Positions 14,616-54,003 of a DNA stretch of 64,000 nucleotides are shown here, piece by piece (the stretch's first letter is position 1; each line of letters opens with the position of its first letter). The stretch comes from Arthrobacter sp. PAMC25284 (GTDB lineage Bacteria > Actinomycetota > Actinomycetes > Actinomycetales > Micrococcaceae), in the NCBI RefSeq assembly GCF_019443425.1, contig NZ_CP080382.1, positions 62,001-126,000 of the forward strand, written 5' to 3'. The translations under genes were made by a program, and so were the position numbers. Under the pieces are notes generated by a model, which was given only the letters and a program-made list of their open reading frames with translations, made no database searches and was not told the DNA's origin.

Positions 14616-15153
14616 CTAGGCATGGTTGGTGTGTTTGATTCGGTAGGGGCGGTGGCCGCCGGCTGCGAGTAGGCACCTGAGCCGGTAGTTGGTGAAGTTG
14701 CGGAAGACTCTGGCGATTCGGCGGGTGGTTTCAATGACGCCGTTGATTGCTTCCGAGGGTCCGTTGGAGGCGCCGTTTGTGTCGAAGTAGGCGAGGATGA
14801 TCGCTTTCCATTGTTTGAGTGTGCGGCCCCAGCCGGGAGACTTCCGGGATCGGGCACGTCGGGAATGAATCGATGACTTCGTTGACGAGTTTCCTGCCTC
14901 GTTCCGGTCTGGCGTCGTAGATGTTGCGGAGCTTTTGGTAGCACGGCCAGGCCAGGGTGACTTCGTGGTCCGGGTCCCCAGCGGTGAGTTTCGCATCCAG
15001 CCGGGCGGACTGCTTGTCGGAGAGATGTTCGGCGCCGATCTTCAGGGTCCTGCGGACACGAAAGAGCGGATCTCCCTTGCAACCGCGGTGTCCGAGGGTA
15101 CCTTGCTGCACGGGGCGGCGGACTTCGTCGACCATGGCTGATCCCAGTTTGAC
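14616..15153 (-). pseudogene. ancestral ISL3 transposase, 3' third
   Basis: This is the C-terminal part of the oldest transposase in the nest. Read leftward from 15153 it gives VKLGSAMVDEVRR, CKGDPLFRVRRTLKIGAEHL and RKLVNEVIDSFPTCPIPEV. Near 14840 the frame shifts, then LKQWKAIILAYFDTNGASNG and SEAINGVIETTRRIARVFRN run to a stop at 14616, the typical ISL3 C-terminus. If the element at 15154 is removed, the reading frame joins exactly to the piece at 18580-18724 (FHVVKL + GSAMVDEV), proving that the pieces belong to one gene. Confidence 0.85.
15146..15153. repeat. 8-bp target duplication, left copy (ISL3-A)
   Basis: AGTTTGAC directly precedes the left terminal repeat of ISL3-A. The second copy is at 18572-18579, after the displaced right end. 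Eight bases is the usual duplication length for ISL3 elements. Confidence 0.85.
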
Positions 15154-16598
15154 GGCTCTCCGCGGTTCGTGGTGAATGTTCTGCCGTGATGGGTGTTCAT
15201 GCCGTTGTTCTGGCGGCACTGCGCAACAGGATACGCGTTTTGTAGTTGCGTGCGTTGGTGAATCCCCGGCCTGTCCTTTTGATGTGTTTGATCGCGGTGT
15301 TGTTGGCTTCGACTTTCGCCGTTGTTGCGCCGGTGACTATGAGGACTTCGATCTCCTTCCACCACCGGCAGATCGTGCGCCAGAGCCGGTTCGTTTCCGG
15401 CTGTTCGGCTCGCTCAACCAGACCCTGCAGACGGTCTTTCGCGGCGGCCGCGTCGGCGAGAGAGCCGGTGGCGAGCAGCGTCCGGAGCTGCTCTTTCACC
15501 AGCCACGCAGCTTGCAGTCTTCCCGTGGCGTCATCAGTGGCGAACACGGTGCTGAGCCTGTGTCGTGCCCGGTGCGAGAGTGTGTCGCCGCCGCGCAGGA
15601 GCAGTCGCCGGTTGGCCCAGACCGGGTCGATGGAGCGTCCCCGACGGCCGTGGACCTGCTGGGTGAGGCGTTGCCGGACTTCGGTGAGCATGTGGTTGCC
15701 GAGCTTGACGAGGTGAAACGCGTCGACCGAGACTGCGGTGCGCGGGAGCCACATCCGCAGGGCCTTGCGGAACGCGGCGGAAGGGTCGATCGCGACGACC
15801 TGCACGCCCAGGCGCCATTGAAGTGGGCGGGCGAAGAGCCATTCTCCGACGCCCTCGCTGTCGCGGCCGTCTACGATCCCGAGAACTTGTCCGGTGTCGA
15901 GATCGACGATGGTGGTCATCCAGGGTTCATAGCGTTTCCAGGCCTGGGTGGCCGGGTCGCGGAAGAAACGAACGGAACGGTAGCGGTGTTCGTCGATGCC
16001 GCGCATCCGCGGGGCGAGGGCATCAACATTAGGCAACGTCAGCGCCGCGGAGTCCAGGGCCTTTTGGACCAGCCACCATGAGACGCCGAACGAGGAGGCT
16101 GTCTCCGCGGCTGCTCTTCCGGATCCGATGACGGCGGCTACGAGGGCGTCACGGAGCCGGCGGGTGGACCGTGCCCGGCGCGGGACCTGGGCGGTCTCCT
16201 CGGTGAATGTCCAGCGCGGGCACAGGTACTCATCGCAGAAGAATCTCCGCTTGATCCAGATCACTTCGACTGGGCCGGCGACGGGGATGTCGCGCAGCCG
16301 TTGAGACCGGCGGGAATGAACGCGGGTGCTGATCACGCCGCAGGACGGGCAGCCGGCCTCGGCGGTGGCTTCGACACTGATTCGGCGCTGCCCGAAGGCG
16401 AGGACCTCGGCGTCTGTGACGCGGTAGTCGGGCAGGTTGAAAATGGCGGTAGCAGCGTCCGGACGCTGGGCAGTAGGCTCGATCAAGGCTCGTAGCTCCT
16501 GACGGTTGATGAATGCGTAGAGAACATCCATCACAGCAGGGCTACGAGCCCTTCAGCTTTCAAGACACGGAACCCGTTTCACCATGAACCACGGAGAG
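15154..16598 (-). mobile_element. ISL3-family element A, right end split by IS110
   Basis: The left terminal repeat GGCTCTCCGCGGTTCGTGG begins at 15154. The right repeat (ACCATGAACCACGGAGAG) stops at 16598, where the IS110 element starts; the missing CC reappears at 18570-18571 beyond it. The rejoined right end reads, in reverse, GGCTCTCCGTGGTTCATGG, matching the left end with two differences in 19. Restored length is about 1,447 bp, nearly equal to sister element B. Flanking AGTTTGAC duplications show it inserted into the older ISL3 transposase gene. Confidence 0.88.
15197..16534 (-). CDS. ISL3-family transposase (element A)
   Basis: 445 residues starting at GTG 16534 (or ATG 16531). It has the N-terminal zinc-binding pattern CPSCGVISTRVHSRR...FFCDEYLCPR, an HTH region (RAAAETASSFGVSWWLVQKAL), and the DDE domain with IDEHRYRSVRFF, TTIVDLDTGQVLGIVDGRD, VVAIDPSAAFRKAL and VSVDAFHLVKLGN. 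The C-terminal ANNTAIKHIKRTGRGFTNAR segment is present. I see no stop or shift, so it may be active, although IS110 has broken the right end of its element, which should block its own transposition. It is a close paralogue of the element B protein. Confidence 0.9.
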   Translation of the reverse strand: MMDVLYAFINRQELRALIEPTAQRPDAATAIFNLPDYRVTDAEVLAFGQRRISVEATAEAGCPSCGVISTRVHSRRSQRLRDIPVAGPVEVIWIKRRFFCDEYLCPRWTFTEETAQVPRRARSTRRLRDALVAAVIGSGRAAAETASSFGVSWWLVQKALDSAALTLPNVDALAPRMRGIDEHRYRSVRFFRDPATQAWKRYEPWMTTIVDLDTGQVLGIVDGRDSEGVGEWLFARPLQWRLGVQVVAIDPSAAFRKALRMWLPRTAVSVDAFHLVKLGNHMLTEVRQRLTQQVHGRRGRSIDPVWANRRLLLRGGDTLSHRARHRLSTVFATDDATGRLQAAWLVKEQLRTLLATGSLADAAAAKDRLQGLVERAEQPETNRLWRTICRWWKEIEVLIVTGATTAKVEANNTAIKHIKRTGRGFTNARNYKTRILLRSAARTTA

Positions 16599-16798
16599 AT
16601 TCCCTAACGCTTGTCAAGCCTTTTTTGGCTCTGGACGGCAGGCAGGCTGAATGCACCGTCACCTGTGTTCTGCGGTGGCGGCAGAGCTGTCCGTCCCGGA
16701 AGGGCCCGTTGCCGGCCCGCTGTTGCCCAGGCTGGTGGAGGGGGGCGAAAGCACGGTCTGTGGCTTGGCGTCGTCCGGTATCGGTGGGGTGCTGGTAG

Positions 16799-18157
16799 CT
16801 ACCGCGTCAGGCGTGCCCGTTTCGCTTCGACCGTGTGGGACCGTGACTGGGTGCGCTGTTTTGGCGTGACGGTATAGCGGGAGGCGATGAGCTCTTTCGC
16901 GGCCCGTTTGGTGACCGGTTGCCCCTCGACGTCGCGGAGCTCATACATCTGCCCGGTGGTGAGGGTTTTCCAGGTTCTTTCGGCGAGTTTCCTGGCGACC
17001 GCGATGGTGGCCTGGGTGTGGCAGTGGCCGCGTTCGGTCATCAGCCGGTGATAGAATGCGGCCAGCTGCGGGTCCATGGTCCGGGCGACGCTGCCGGCCT
17101 GGTAGAAAGCCAGGCGCAGGGGCGCCGGTCCTTCCTTGCTGATGGCCCGGCGCGACTGGTTCATCGTCCCGGAGGACCAGTTCGAAGGGGTAATGCCGAC
17201 ATAGTTCGCGGCCTTCTTGGCACTGTCGAACCCGGATCCGTCACCGAAGTAGGCGCGGATGCAAGGACCGATTGCCGGGCCCACGCCAGGCAGGGACAGG
17301 GTCAGCGGGTCATCGCCGTAGAGATGCTCCCACCACTGCCGTGAATGCGACGTGAAGCGATCCACCCTAGCCCGGGATTCCTGCAGGTCAGCGAGGTGCT
17401 CGGTGACATCGACGGCCAGCGCGTCCAGGTCCAGGTGCCCGTCCCAGAAATCCGCCCATCCCCGGGCCGCGGCCTTGATCGCGGTGGCGCGGGAGGGTGT
17501 GTCGGCGACGCCACGGGTGTGCTCGGCGACCACAGCGGTCAGGGTCGCAGCGCGTGCCGATGCCAGGGACCGGAGGTGGGGCCAACGGCCGAGCACGGCC
17601 AGTGCTGTCGGCTCGGATCCGGCGAACGCGGTCCACACATCGGGAAAGGCCCACCGTGCCAGCGACAGAAGTCGCCGCCAGTAGCGGTTGCCGTCAATGA
17701 CGGCGCCGGCCCGGCGGACCACGGCCCGGCGCAGCGCCAGCTGTCCCGGGGATGCCAGGACCAGCGGTGGCGGGTCGAAGATCTCCCCGACGTGGGTGAG
17801 GACCTCGGAGTCGATGACGTCGGATTTATTCTTGCCCATGATGGCTCCGCGCAACCGCGAGGAGTGGCGGGCGCCGATCATTTCCATCTGGCCGCCGGCC
17901 CGTTCGACCGCGAGGGCCAGCGCCAGCCAGGTCATCGATGTCGGTTCCACAACCGCCGTTAGCGGCGCTGGAACTGCGGCCAGCCGCGCCGAGAGCCTCT
18001 CCAACCCGGCCAGTGTCGGGTCGACCGTGAAACGGCTCAGGTGTTCAGTTCCGTCATCGAAAAACTCCCGGACCGCGATATGGTGCCGTGCCGTGATGGC
18101 CGCGTCGATACCCGCTACTGCCCGGATGATCTCCGCGGGTTTATTCTGATTTTGCAT
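16799..18157 (-). CDS. IS110-family DEDD transposase
   Basis: 452 residues. The N-terminal DEDD_Tnp_IS110 domain starts with VAGIDAAITARHHIAVREF (Asp18), then AVVEPTSMTWLALAL (Glu) and GKNKSDVIDSEVL (Asp-Asp), forming the RuvC-like acidic tetrad. The C-terminal transposase_20 domain has LSLPGVGPAIGPCIRAYFGD and GITPSNWSSGTMNQSRR with the conserved serine. Such enzymes act with an element-encoded bridge RNA to choose target and donor DNA. I chose ATG 18157, preceded by GAGGAGGAG, over an in-frame start at 18247. No disruption is seen, so the element may be active. Confidence 0.92.
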   Translation of the reverse strand: MQNQNKPAEIIRAVAGIDAAITARHHIAVREFFDDGTEHLSRFTVDPTLAGLERLSARLAAVPAPLTAVVEPTSMTWLALALAVERAGGQMEMIGARHSSRLRGAIMGKNKSDVIDSEVLTHVGEIFDPPPLVLASPGQLALRRAVVRRAGAVIDGNRYWRRLLSLARWAFPDVWTAFAGSEPTALAVLGRWPHLRSLASARAATLTAVVAEHTRGVADTPSRATAIKAAARGWADFWDGHLDLDALAVDVTEHLADLQESRARVDRFTSHSRQWWEHLYGDDPLTLSLPGVGPAIGPCIRAYFGDGSGFDSAKKAANYVGITPSNWSSGTMNQSRRAISKEGPAPLRLAFYQAGSVARTMDPQLAAFYHRLMTERGHCHTQATIAVARKLAERTWKTLTTGQMYELRDVEGQPVTKRAAKELIASRYTVTPKQRTQSRSHTVEAKRARLTR

Positions 18158-18567
18158 GATGGTTCTCCTCCTCGCATCGAATACGTGCGATGGGACAACC
18201 CGTCGTTGCCGGTCCACCAGCCGAGTCACCAGGCCGGGCTTCCCCATCCTTGGGGAGAACCGTCATGCGCTAACCCGAGCGCCGACGGCGACCTCCCTCA
18301 CACGCCCGCGACTGCTGAGGAAGCGTCGGATACAGTTCCCGCGCTTGTGAGTTATCCGGTGCCTGCCCGGACGAAAGCCGGTGCTGCGCACCGTTCTCTT
18401 CCGGCCACCAATTCCCTCAATCGGGTCTGCTTGGAAGACAGGCCGGGGGTGACGATCTCTTTCACGGGCCATGATGCCCAGCCGAAAACCGGAACCACCC
18501 CGGCCCCTCCCAAGGCCACCGTAAACGACGACCACCCCACGTCAACAGGGGGTACTTAAGAGATACA
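18158..18567 (-). ncRNA. candidate bridge-RNA region of IS110
   Basis: This 410-base non-coding stretch lies between the element's outer end and the transposase ribosome site. In IS110-group elements the bridge RNA is encoded at this 5' end. The stretch is rich in short inverted repeats (for example GGTGCTGCGCACC at 18380-18392) and has no credible protein. By analogy the RNA would begin near the outer end and run leftward. I could not assign target- or donor-binding loops by eye with confidence, so the exact RNA limits are unknown. Confidence 0.5.
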
Positions 18568-18571
18568 AGCC

Positions 18572-18579
18572 AGTTTGAC
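18572..18579. repeat. 8-bp target duplication, right copy (ISL3-A)
   Basis: AGTTTGAC, identical to 15146-15153. It follows the displaced last bases (CC) of ISL3-A at 18570-18571 and resumes the older ISL3 transposase reading frame. Confidence 0.85.
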
Positions 18580-18724
18580 GACGTGGAAAACGTCCAGGAC
18601 CGTGATGGCTTCGGGGGGCTCGTCACGAATTGCGTTGGCGTAGCCGCGGAAAGGATCCAGCGCCGCTGTCTTGATGCCGGCGGTGAACCCGGTGCCGCGG
18701 TCGTTTGAGCCAGTCAGGGTAGGC
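18580..18724 (-). pseudogene. ancestral ISL3 transposase, middle fragment
   Basis: Read leftward from 18724 this gives DWLK, then after a one-base insertion (extra C near 18698) GTGFTAGIKTAALDPFRGYA and EAITVLDVFHVVKL, the central DDE part of an ISL3 transposase. It joins in frame to the 20167-20815 fragment when ISL3-B is removed (GKAY + PDWLK) and to 14616-15153 when ISL3-A is removed. Confidence 0.85.
18717..18724. repeat. 8-bp target duplication, left copy (ISL3-B)
   Basis: GGGTAGGC immediately before the left terminal repeat of ISL3-B; the identical octamer follows the right terminal repeat at 20167-20174. Confidence 0.92.
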
Positions 18725-20166
18725 GGCTCTCCGCGGTTCGTGGTGATTTCCACTGTGCGGTGGATGTTCAGGCCGCCGTTCTGGCGCCGCTTCTGAGCAT
18801 AATGAGAGTGGTGTTGTTGCGGCTATTGACGAATCACCGTCCGGTCCGTTTCAGGTGCTTGATGGCCGTATTGTTCGCCGCTACTTTCGCCGTTGTTGCG
18901 CCGGTGACGATGAGTACTTCGATTTCCTTCCACCAGCGGCAGACCGTGCGCCAGAGCCTGGTCGTCTCGGGCTGGGCTGCGTGTTCGACGAGTTCCTGGG
19001 GCCGGTGCTTCGCGGCCGCGGCGTCGGCGAGTGAGCCGGTGCGCAACATCGCGCGGAGCTGCTCTTTGACGTTCCAGGCCGCCTGCAGCTTGCCGGTCGG
19101 GTCATCGAGGTCGAAGACTTGTTTGAGCCGGTCACTGCCCCGGCCCGAGAGCGTCTCGCCGGCGCGGAGCAGCAGCCGGCGGTTGGCCCAGACCGGGTCC
19201 GGGGTGCATCCTCGTCGGCCCTTGGTTTCCTGGGTCAGTCGCTGCCGGACTTCGGTGAGCATGTTGTTCCCGAGCAGGACCAGGTGGAAGGCGTCGACCG
19301 AGACGGCGGTGCGGGGCAGCCACATCCGCAGGGCTTTCCGGAACGCCGCGGACGTGTCGATGGCGACGACCTGCACGCAGAACCGCCAGTCGAGCGGGCG
19401 GGCGAGGAGCCACTCGCCGACGCCCTGGTGGTCCCGGCCGTCGACCACACCGAGGACCCGGCCCGTGTCCAGGTCAACGATGGTAGTCATCCCGGGTTCG
19501 AATCGCTTCCAGGCATTGGTTTCGGGATCCTTGAAGAACCGGACGGAACGGAACCGGTGCTCATCGATGCCCAGCATCCGGGGACGCAGCTTGTCGACGT
19601 CCGGAAGCCTGGTGGCCGCCATGTTCAGGGCCCGCTGGACCAGCCACCACGAGACCCCATGCGCCGCGGCGGCTTCAGTGGCGGCGCGGCTGGAATCAAT
19701 GACCGCGGAGACGAGCATGTCCCGCAGCCGGCGGGTGGAACGGGCCAGGCGCGGGACCTTGGGGGTGGCTTCGAAGAACGTCTTCCGGGGGCATTCGGAT
19801 TCATCGCAGAAGAACCGTCGCTTGGACCAGATGACCTCCACCGGCCCGGCGACGGGAATGTCACGGACCCGCTGGAGGCGCCGTGAGTGCCGCCGGGTGC
19901 CGATCACACCGCAGTCAGGGCACCCGGATTCGACGATGCTCTCGACCAGGATTCTGCGCTGGCCGAAGCCCAGAATCTCGGTTGAAAGAACAAGGTAGTC
20001 AGGCAGGTTGAACATGGCGGTGGCAGCGTCAGGGCACCGGGAAGTAAGCTCGGTCACGGCTCGTAGTCCTGTCATCGATGAATGCGTCAAGAACATCCAT
20101 CACAACAGGGCTACGGGCCCCTCACGTCTAAAGACACGAACCCGAATGCACCAACCACGGAGAGCC
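18725..20166 (-). mobile_element. ISL3-family element B, complete ends
   Basis: 1,442 bp. The left end GGCTCTCCGCGGTTCGTGG at 18725 and the right end, which in reverse reads GGCTCTCCGTGGTTGGTG from 20166, form imperfect terminal inverted repeats. Perfect GGGTAGGC duplications flank it, so insertion was a single clean event into the ancestral ISL3 transposase gene. It is a close relative of element A with the same orientation. Confidence 0.93.
18834..20096 (-). CDS. ISL3-family transposase (element B), altered ends
   Basis: 420 residues, strongly similar to the element A protein through the zinc-binding pattern CPDCGVIGTRRHSRR, IDEHRFRSVRFF, TTIVDLDTGRVLGVVDGRD and VSVDAFHLVLLGNNM. Two differences suggest impairment. 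At the 3' end a TGA replaces the Gly codon of KRTGRGFTNAR, yet the frame beyond still encodes FVNSRNNTTLIMLRSGARTA, so about 21 residues are lost. At the 5' end a two-base length difference from A (near 20070) changes the first residues, and translation probably starts at ATG 20096. Confidence 0.85.
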   Translation of the reverse strand: MFLTHSSMTGLRAVTELTSRCPDAATAMFNLPDYLVLSTEILGFGQRRILVESIVESGCPDCGVIGTRRHSRRLQRVRDIPVAGPVEVIWSKRRFFCDESECPRKTFFEATPKVPRLARSTRRLRDMLVSAVIDSSRAATEAAAAHGVSWWLVQRALNMAATRLPDVDKLRPRMLGIDEHRFRSVRFFKDPETNAWKRFEPGMTTIVDLDTGRVLGVVDGRDHQGVGEWLLARPLDWRFCVQVVAIDTSAAFRKALRMWLPRTAVSVDAFHLVLLGNNMLTEVRQRLTQETKGRRGCTPDPVWANRRLLLRAGETLSGRGSDRLKQVFDLDDPTGKLQAAWNVKEQLRAMLRTGSLADAAAAKHRPQELVEHAAQPETTRLWRTVCRWWKEIEVLIVTGATTAKVAANNTAIKHLKRTGR

Positions 20167-50896: not shown

Positions 50897-52876
<1,980 letters not shown>

Positions 52877-52890
52877 CTACGCTTGGAGTC

Positions 52891-54003
52891 ATGAACAGGA
52901 TCATCGAGTTCAGCGGCCCGGTGCTGACCGCCCCGGACCGGGAAGAGCATGGACTGTGGTCGGTCGACGGCGTCCTGACCTTCCGGCGGCCTGCCGTCAG
53001 ACCGGACCGGGTCCTCGCCGGCTGGGTGATCCCGGGCCTCGTGGACGCCCACTGCCACATCGGACTCGGACCCGGTGGGGATGTCCCGGACCATACCGCC
53101 GAGGAACAGGCGCTCACGGACCGGAACGCCGGCACCCTGCTGGTGCGCGACGCCGGGGCTGTCCACGACACCCGCTGGCTGCAGCAGCGGGCCGACCTGC
53201 CGCGCATCATCCGGGCCGGACGGCATATCGCCCGGACCCGGCGGTACCTGCGGGGTTTCGCCGTCGAGGTTGAACCGGAAGGCCTCGTAGAGGCTGTGCG
53301 GAAACAGGCCAAGGCCGGGGACGGCTGGGTCAAACTCGTCGGGGACTGGATCGACCGTGACGCCGGGGACCTTGCCCCGAGCTTCCCGGCCCGAGTACTT
53401 AAGGACGCCGTCGAGGCGGCCCACGACGAAGGCGCGCGGGTGACGGCGCATTGTTTCGCTGAGGACACGCTCGATGACATGCTCGACGCCGGGATCGACT
53501 GCATCGAGCACGCCACCGGGCTCCTTCCCCGGCACCTTCCGCGTTTCGTGGAGCAGGGCGTCCCGATCGTCCCTACCCTGATCAACATCGCCACGTTCCC
53601 GGACATTGCCGCCCAGGCCGAGGCGAGGTTTCCGCGCTACGCCGCGCACATGCGCTCGCTCTGGCAGCGCCGCAGCGAGCGGATCCTCGAGGCCTTCGAG
53701 GCCGGGGTTCCGATTTACACCGGCACTGATGCCGGGAGCGTAATCCGGCACGGGCGCATTGTGGACGAAATCCAGGCATTGCACGCCGCAGGCCTGCCGG
53801 CCAGGGCGGCCCTCGACGCCGGGACCTGGTCCGCACGGGACTGGCTCGGCGCCGACGGGATCAGCGAGGGGGCCAGCGCCGACGTCCTGGTCTGCGCCGA
53901 GGATCCCCGGACCAATCTGGGCACCCTGCAGGAACTCAAGCACATTGTCCTTCGCGGCGAACCGGTCGCTCCGGCAGCAACCGGCCCATTAGGAATAAAT
54001 TGA
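52891..54003 (+). CDS. amidohydrolase-family protein
   Basis: 370 residues. TIM-barrel amidohydrolase: metal ligands in IPGLVDAHCHIGLG, KLVGDWIDRD with the bridging-lysine region, VTAHCFAEDTLDDML, GIDCIEHATGLL and the last Asp in IYTGTDAGSVIRHG. It resembles imidazolonepropionase/prolidase-like enzymes; the substrate is unknown. ATG 52891 lies 85 bases from the riboswitch start on the other strand, so their promoters are back to back. Confidence 0.8.
   Translation: MNRIIEFSGPVLTAPDREEHGLWSVDGVLTFRRPAVRPDRVLAGWVIPGLVDAHCHIGLGPGGDVPDHTAEEQALTDRNAGTLLVRDAGAVHDTRWLQQRADLPRIIRAGRHIARTRRYLRGFAVEVEPEGLVEAVRKQAKAGDGWVKLVGDWIDRDAGDLAPSFPARVLKDAVEAAHDEGARVTAHCFAEDTLDDMLDAGIDCIEHATGLLPRHLPRFVEQGVPIVPTLINIATFPDIAAQAEARFPRYAAHMRSLWQRRSERILEAFEAGVPIYTGTDAGSVIRHGRIVDEIQALHAAGLPARAALDAGTWSARDWLGADGISEGASADVLVCAEDPRTNLGTLQELKHIVLRGEPVAPAATGPLGIN

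Follow-up and report, generated by a model that had tools for sequence, protein, structure and literature searches.

An IS110-group element nested in the tip of an ISL3 element

In the 64,000-nucleotide window of Arthrobacter sp. PAMC25284 analysed here (contig NZ_CP080382.1, positions 62,001 to 126,000), an insertion sequence of the IS110 group lies on the minus strand inside a terminal inverted repeat (TIR) of an ISL3-family insertion sequence, ISL3-A, which is itself inserted with a second ISL3 element, ISL3-B, in an older host ISL3 gene that is now broken, ISL3-C. The following features make up this nest (window coordinates).

15146..15153, no strand: 8-bp target duplication AGTTTGAC of ISL3-A, left copy
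15154..16598, with the last CC displaced to 18570-18571, minus strand: ISL3-A, the target element (TIRs, target duplication, Pfam DDE_Tnp_ISL3)
16599..18569, minus strand: IS110-group insertion sequence, 1971 bp (borders from the interrupted ISL3 TIR; relatives with the same ends)
18572..18579, no strand: 8-bp target duplication AGTTTGAC of ISL3-A, right copy
18580..18724, minus strand: ISL3-C, older host ISL3 transposase gene, middle fragment (Pfam DDE_Tnp_ISL3; joins)
18725-20166: ISL3-B, 1442 bp, with an 8-bp duplication GGGTAGGC, in ISL3-C and ~150 bp from ISL3-A

The insert occupies plus-strand positions 16599-18569, its 1971 bp including one CT, and is flanked on that strand by CCACGGAGAG up to 16598 and by CC AGTTTGAC from 18570. 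On the transposase strand the region reads GTCAAACTGG-CT-element-CT-CTCCGTGG, with the junction GG-CT-CTCC and CT present at both element ends. The element sits 2 bp within the TIR of ISL3-A, and its right flank is the ISL3-A TIR. The original prediction held that the interrupted ISL3 repeat fixes both borders and that the core is CT, as in IS621 of Escherichia coli. Both claims proved correct: the alignment is ambiguous by the 2-nt CT only, the limits first given (16597-18569) being off by at most 2 bases.

With the insert removed, ISL3-A measures 1447 bp and its TIRs match at 21 of the first 23 positions. The remaining parts of ISL3-C lie left of 15146 and right of 20174, and its parts join across both insertions into one transposase reading (...RPTLTGSNDRG...FHVVKLGSAMVDEVRR...). 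Since the flanks beyond ISL3-A join into one ISL3 reading, the IS110 borders are supported at two levels. The nesting also gives the order of events, with ISL3-C first, then ISL3-A (and ISL3-B), and the IS110 element after ISL3-A. A fragment of ~506 bp with 100% reported identity to ISL3-A is found elsewhere, at contig 52619-53124, and judging from this identity ISL3-A may have moved or been copied recently. Both TIRs of ISL3-B (GGCTCTCC...) are unoccupied targets, and the Pfam match of the ISL3-B transposase continues past one stop near the C-terminus. A search of the whole source genome found only one copy of such an IS110 element.

The recombinase

16799..18157, minus strand: IS110 transposase/recombinase, 452 aa (Pfam PF01548 and PF02371; alignment to IS621, PDB 8wt6, and ISCro4, PDB 9t56)

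Pfam DEDD_Tnp_IS110 and Transposase_20 both exceed their cut-offs in the 452-aa protein, which carries the RuvC-like DEDD domain and the Transposase_20 domain with its serine that mark the IS110 family. Residues D18, E71, D113 and D116 align with the DEDD motif of IS621 in a weak N-terminal stretch (11.6 bits), and S329 aligns with the IS621 serine in a clear C-terminal one (50.4 bits); catalytic roles have been published for D11, E60, D102, D105 and S241 of IS621 (PMC11208158). All five residues are invariant across 16 relatives, in agreement with the earlier statement that the DEDD and serine motifs look intact. Among solved structures, a profile of the 16 relatives matches IS621 and ISCro4. 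The latter, compared here by protein alone, scores slightly better by sequence (64.4 vs 63.8 bits). The IS621 chain differs in length, with 328 residues against 452 here.

A long, conserved left end predicted to encode a bridge RNA

18158..18569, minus strand: left non-coding end (LE), 412 nt, starting with the core CT followed by TGTATC (right donor)
16599..16798, minus strand: right non-coding end (RE), 200 nt, ending GTTAGGGAAT (left donor), with TTGACA at 16612-16617
18338..18553 (approximate), minus strand: predicted bridge RNA with 5' hairpin, target-binding loop and donor-binding loop (conservation, pair counts)

The LE is longer than the RE (412 vs 200 nt), as in the IS110 group, and the element shares with the IS110 family a shared core of CT only, with no ordinary TIR and no longer target duplication. 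Among the nine elements compared at both ends, 182 of 242 LE columns were invariant and 69 of 246 RE columns. The original prediction placed a bridge RNA in the long 5' end; conservation of the LE and the ordered guide matches described below speak for this, while the length of a 410-nt left end is in itself no evidence of an RNA, which stays a predicted one.

In the structure drawn for the LE, a 5' hairpin is followed by a long stem carrying an internal loop (UUUUCGGCU, an apical hairpin and UGAAAGAG-AU) and then by a second stem, likewise with an internal loop (AGGGAAUU ... ACAAG-C), the plan reported for the IS621 bridge RNA (PMC11208160). Over 14 sequences, 90.9% of cells were paired in this structure, compared with 46-55% when it was slid by 1-3 columns, figures biased in its favour by its having been made from the element's own sequence. 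Shuffles gave 3.3 cells changed on both sides, and none of 500 equalled the 13 counted here; pairs with changes on both sides numbered 6, against 3.1 (30 of 500 as high), and further pair types were not raised (461 of 500 shuffles as high). RNAalifold gave broadly the same apical hairpin and target stem, the inner part of the stem being displaced by one. A search with RNA family models came back empty, Rfam release 15 containing no family that matches the element. Elsewhere in the window a TPP riboswitch lies at 52707-52814 on the minus strand (Rfam RF00059, 63.1 bits).

A guide RNA in the 3' end together with subterminal inverted repeats would instead characterise an element of the IS1111 type, and the 200-nt non-coding RE could hold an RNA. 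This assignment is very improbable here: exact inverted matches between the terminal 60 bases reach no more than 5 bp, so that by exact matching the subterminal inverted repeats of 7-17 bp are missing, and the RE is poorly conserved (the 69 of 246 columns above, vs 182 of 242 in the LE) and lacks guide matches comparable to those of the LE. An RNA on the 3' side, named in the original prediction as one of the findings that would overturn it, is thus not indicated. The tested sequence features of the IS110 group are present, the guide matches over the relatives taken together, and those of the IS1111 group are absent; for the fold with two internal loops, pair counts favour the drawn structure and RNAalifold departs from it in the donor half.

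Repeated use of ISL3 ends by related elements

Close relatives are rare, with 10 loci in 84,980 species genomes searched with single-sequence patterns. At E <= 1e-60 they occurred in 3 of 395 genomes of the family, 2 of 394 of the class, 10 of 206 of the genus and 3 of 72,556 plasmids, and at E <= 1e-50 they were seen in 2 of 351 genomes from another family and, with a profile, in 3 of 396 from the phylum; the source genome is included in the family, class, genus and phylum counts. Other relatives, 57-69% identical, were recovered as proteins. Copies with identical flanks or matching places were treated as one locus (L029 with L010, L021 with L011, L031/L038 with L013, L033 with L017, L034 with L018, L022/L023 with L025, L035/L039 with L026, L024 with L015 and L032 with L016). 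Three loci with broken ends or a missing tip (L015, L016 and L019) were excluded from the 14-row alignment A3 and the counts, and L036, whose left end equals that of L028 (0 differences), was used in target counts only.

Once duplicates were merged, 13 copies retained a right end, our own among them. The right flank reads CTCTTC in 11 of these, CTCTCC in our own and CTCTAC in L010. An ISL3 gene or remnant lies within ~300 bp on the RE side in 10 of the 13 (our own, L011, L013, L018, L025, L026, L028, L030/L037, L036 and L040), the L028 remnant being under the Pfam cut-off and the L018 remnant coming from tblastn with the ISL3-A protein only. In an eleventh copy, L027, the RE flank reads nearly like the TIR of the ISL3 in G1042, and no ISL3 gene was found on its 69-kb record. 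The insertions are at the 5' side of the ISL3 gene in our own copy, L013, L025 and L030 and at the 3' side in L018, L026, L036 and L040. The two bases directly left of the core form the TIR tip GG in 12 of 14 compared copies (AG in L010, CG in L017), and the seven bases left of the core are different in all 14.

Our reading of these sequences is that the copies arose by repeated insertion at ISL3 tips, each with its IS110 right end toward the ISL3 interior. That the association was instead inherited from one ancestral insertion is suggested by the ~82-95% DNA identity of the close relatives; it is contradicted by the bases left of the core, different in every copy, by the differing ISL3 neighbours and by the use of both sides of ISL3 genes, and we consider it the least probable of the alternatives weighed here. 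In the source genome, the motif GGCTCTYCRYGGTT has six perfect matches, five of them at ends of ISL3 elements or fragments and one (contig 879790) within a 29-bp ISL3-TIR match with no gene nearby; its presence at other ISL3 ends means that free targets remain.

Two distant relatives from the phylum search, L045 and L046, retain the left donor TTAGGGAAT. L045 also has a donor-guide-like GGTTGAGGGAAGTGG, and the target loops of both were unreadable by eye. In L045, a distant actinobacterial IS110, the core seems to be CA. The nesting is reversed at L013:2558-3883 and L015:2366-3583, where the IS110 left-end/5' region contains an ISL3 transposase gene, so that ISL3 seems also to insert into IS110. 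At L028:1072-1108 the IS110 left-end tip (GGCTTGTATCCCTTAAGT) stands twice in tandem beside ISL3-TIR-like sequence, perhaps the trace of repeated recombination at the core.

Candidate guides for target and donor

18480..18488, minus strand: candidate left target guide UUUUCGGCU, with consistent pairing for GGCU only
18457..18464, minus strand: candidate right target guide UGAAAGAG, which pairs CT-CTTC(A) with one bulged A; a 5' extension to 18467 is possible, in competition with the apical stem
18455..18456, minus strand: candidate target-loop handshake guide AU, pairing the element's last AT; the same bases as A81 U82 given for IS621 (PMC11208158)
18410..18417, minus strand: candidate left donor guide AGGGAAUU, pairing AGGGAAT-C
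18344..18348, minus strand: candidate right donor guide ACAAG, pairing CT-TGT; the handshake C follows at 18343 and pairs the target G

These assignments were compared with scans in which 205 LE positions were scored against each element's own target or donor with 11 elements taken together, leaving out L014 and L017 (without a right end), L011 (damaged left tip) and L036; the elements scanned are related and so are not independent witnesses. With one bulge allowed, the best of the 205 positions for the RE-CT-target junction was the right target guide with its handshake (8.12; next 6.06), a score that none of 300 column-permuted queries reached. The left donor query was best at the proposed left donor guide, with no equal among 500 permuted queries, and the right donor query and the junction of left target, core and right donor (LT-CT-RD) were both best at the proposed right donor guide (25 and 12 of 500 as good). 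The GG-CT query was likewise best at the proposed left target guide, with 126 of 500 permutations as good, this query being too short to judge. The proposed guides are arranged along the LE in IS621 order, and a scan of 141 RE positions with the junction, left donor and right donor queries gave no comparable sites. Scored on its first six bases without the bulge, the right target guide ranks fifth of 205. An alternative right target guide, GGAAGAG (alignment A3 column 188), was rejected; it lies 3' of the left donor guide, is unconserved and ranks fourth of 205 on six bases.

Pair counts over the relatives, in which wobbles are included, were uneven along the target. Target positions 6-9 (GG-CT) were paired with the left guide in 13, 14, 14 and 14 of 14 elements. 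Against the right guide, with two guide bases skipped in L027 and L040 to fit, positions 8-13 (CT-CTTC) were paired in 13, 13, 13, 13, 11 and 13 of 13 and positions 14-17 in 8, 7, 8 and 9 of 13. The left donor was paired at positions 1-8 in 12-13 of 13 elements and at position 9 in none of 13, and the left donor guide of IS621 is reported to span eight bases (PMC11208158). Right donor positions 8-12 were paired in all 14, the target-loop handshake AU with the element's last AT in 12 and 11 of 13, and the donor-loop handshake with target base 7 in 14 of 14.

A change on both sides of one pair was found in L027 and L040, where the donor reads CTTAT in place of CTTGT and the guide GUAAG in place of ACAAG, a G-to-A change in the donor with a C-to-U change in the guide. 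The two are sister copies and count as one event, and the covariation requires the left junction to be read as CC-TATATC. In both copies the left junction is apparently CC and the right junction CT, and the adjacent identical ISL3 in G1042 has GGCCCTTCC at that end, which suggests that these junctions arose when a donor with a CT core recombined with a target whose core was CC.

Guided or protein-directed target choice

The original prediction expected precise borders and a known target to allow prediction of the guide loops, and an internal loop to match the target halves around CT. With the homologues pooled the loops could be predicted; from the element's own sequence alone they could not. 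Of the two target halves, the right one is matched by its guide with one bulge and the left one by GG-CT only.

Several results count against a bridge RNA of this kind. In the scans, the junction without a bulge was not significant (183 of 500 permuted queries as good); with the ten target bases alone and a bulge, the right guide was narrowly best (6.71 vs 6.52; 14 of 300), and without the bulge the best ten-base site lay elsewhere (25 of 500 as good there). A nine-base left target query ranked the left guide third of 205. Single-sequence guide matches were not significant in any of the 11 elements (lowest p 0.060); for our own element alone, only the right donor gave a low count (13 of 500), at a site in the target loop and not at the donor guide, and all other guide counts were at least 56 of 500 or 137 of 1000. 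In the pair counts, target positions 1-5 were paired with the left guide in only 9, 6, 3, 5 and 5 of 14 elements, our own target is mismatched at position 12, and the first five bases of the left guide (18480-18488) are identical in 12 of the 14 A3 rows despite rarely matching the target. As to structure, RNAalifold gave the donor half other pairs and the 5' hairpin another register, and let portions of the two target guides pair with each other, and our own LE has no advantage in folding over shuffles (z -1.29; 22 of 200 as good). The circle junction (RE-CT-LE) puts TTGACA 17 nt ahead of TATCTC, a weak -10 box, and this promoter is a candidate only. Finally, L010 and L012 are without ISL3 at the target, and the genome of L012 gave no ISL3 match anywhere.

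Some of these results would also be expected if protein-DNA contact, or a loose GGCTCTTC preference, led the recombinase to ISL3 ends, with the LE conserved as a regulatory leader of the transposase gene. The non-significant single-sequence matches and the mostly unmatched left guide fit such an explanation, as does the use of one kind of target by the few close relatives. It is set against the ordered donor and target matches with their handshake bases over 11 elements, against the paired guide and donor changes in L027 and L040 (one event, under one junction reading) and against the homology of the recombinase to that of IS621, which according to PMC11208160 requires its bridge RNA in vitro. 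On this balance we regard recognition by protein alone as unlikely, though less so than an IS1111-type element. Taking together the exact borders, the CT core, the conserved LE, the pooled guide matches and the repeated use of ISL3 ends, all of them evident in the sequences, we conclude with a probability of roughly 0.87 that the insert represents an autonomous IS110-group element whose lineage is directed to ISL3 tips by a predicted bridge RNA.

Proposed mechanism of insertion

We infer transcription of the RNA, its binding by the protein, circle formation and strand exchange from the IS621 mechanism, the sequence of the circle junction alone being read directly. An excised circle would join RE and LE at CT, and the LE bridge RNA would be expressed from this circle, possibly from the weak promoter candidate TTGACA-17 nt-TATCTC at the junction. 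The RNA would bind the 452-aa DEDD/serine recombinase, its donor loop holding AGGGAAT-C / CT-TGT and its target loop GG-CT / CT-CTTC. The donor junction AGGGAAT-CT-TGT would then recombine with the target GG-CT-CTTC, the outermost bases of ISL3-family TIRs, the top strands being cut after CT and exchanged while the handshake bases take new partner strands.

The right target guide presumably reads ISL3-specific sequence with one flipped-out A, and the left guide appears to add little to GG-CT, since farther left the target consists of the DNA into which the ISL3 copy happened to insert. With no more than GG contributed by the ISL3 edge to the left side, the right guide should supply most of the specificity. 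An insertion moves the terminal GG away from the rest of the ISL3 TIR, and the end concerned is probably disabled by it. The wider proposal, to which we give even odds, is of a bridge RNA fixed on ISL3 tips, with a flipped-out nucleotide in the right guide and a nearly idle left guide, each insertion disarming an ISL3 element with the IS110 in constant orientation, that is, an RNA-guided hyperparasitism.

Comparison with known systems and implications

IS621 resembles this element in its DEDD residues and serine, CT core and long LE and, as far as published for it, in guide order, target-loop handshake AU and a left donor guide over eight positions; the right donor begins CT-TGTAT in both, the IS621 side being deduced from contacts (PMC11208158). 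Unlike IS621, the element has an ISL3 TIR as target, a right target guide with one predicted bulge and a left target guide that pairs consistently at 4 of 9 positions. The donor-loop handshake differs as well, G166 with target C7 being given for IS621 and C with target G found here.

Insertion into the TIRs of another mobile element is already known, judging by paper titles, from IS4321/IS5075, whose targets are the TIRs of Tn21-family transposons, and from IS1383, which inserts into the inverted repeats of another insertion sequence, IS1384. IS4321/IS5075 belong by their description to the IS1111 group with subterminal repeats and have another target, and the target of IS1383 is likewise other than ISL3. 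No report of IS110 in ISL3 ends was found in the searched literature, from which subscription journals were mostly absent, and PMC11208160 and PMC11187229 do not mention ISL3 in their main texts.

The mechanism itself is already known, and the gain lies in a new orthologue and a new target class and not in a new principle. The locus provides a precisely bordered natural donor/target pair for an actinobacterial IS110, its target unusually easy to read and its candidate guides assigned, and offers a testable example of asymmetric target recognition in which the left side of the target supplies only GG. It suggests how one insertion sequence can use another as its landing site and, if the wider proposal is true, would represent RNA-guided hyperparasitism of one insertion sequence by another.

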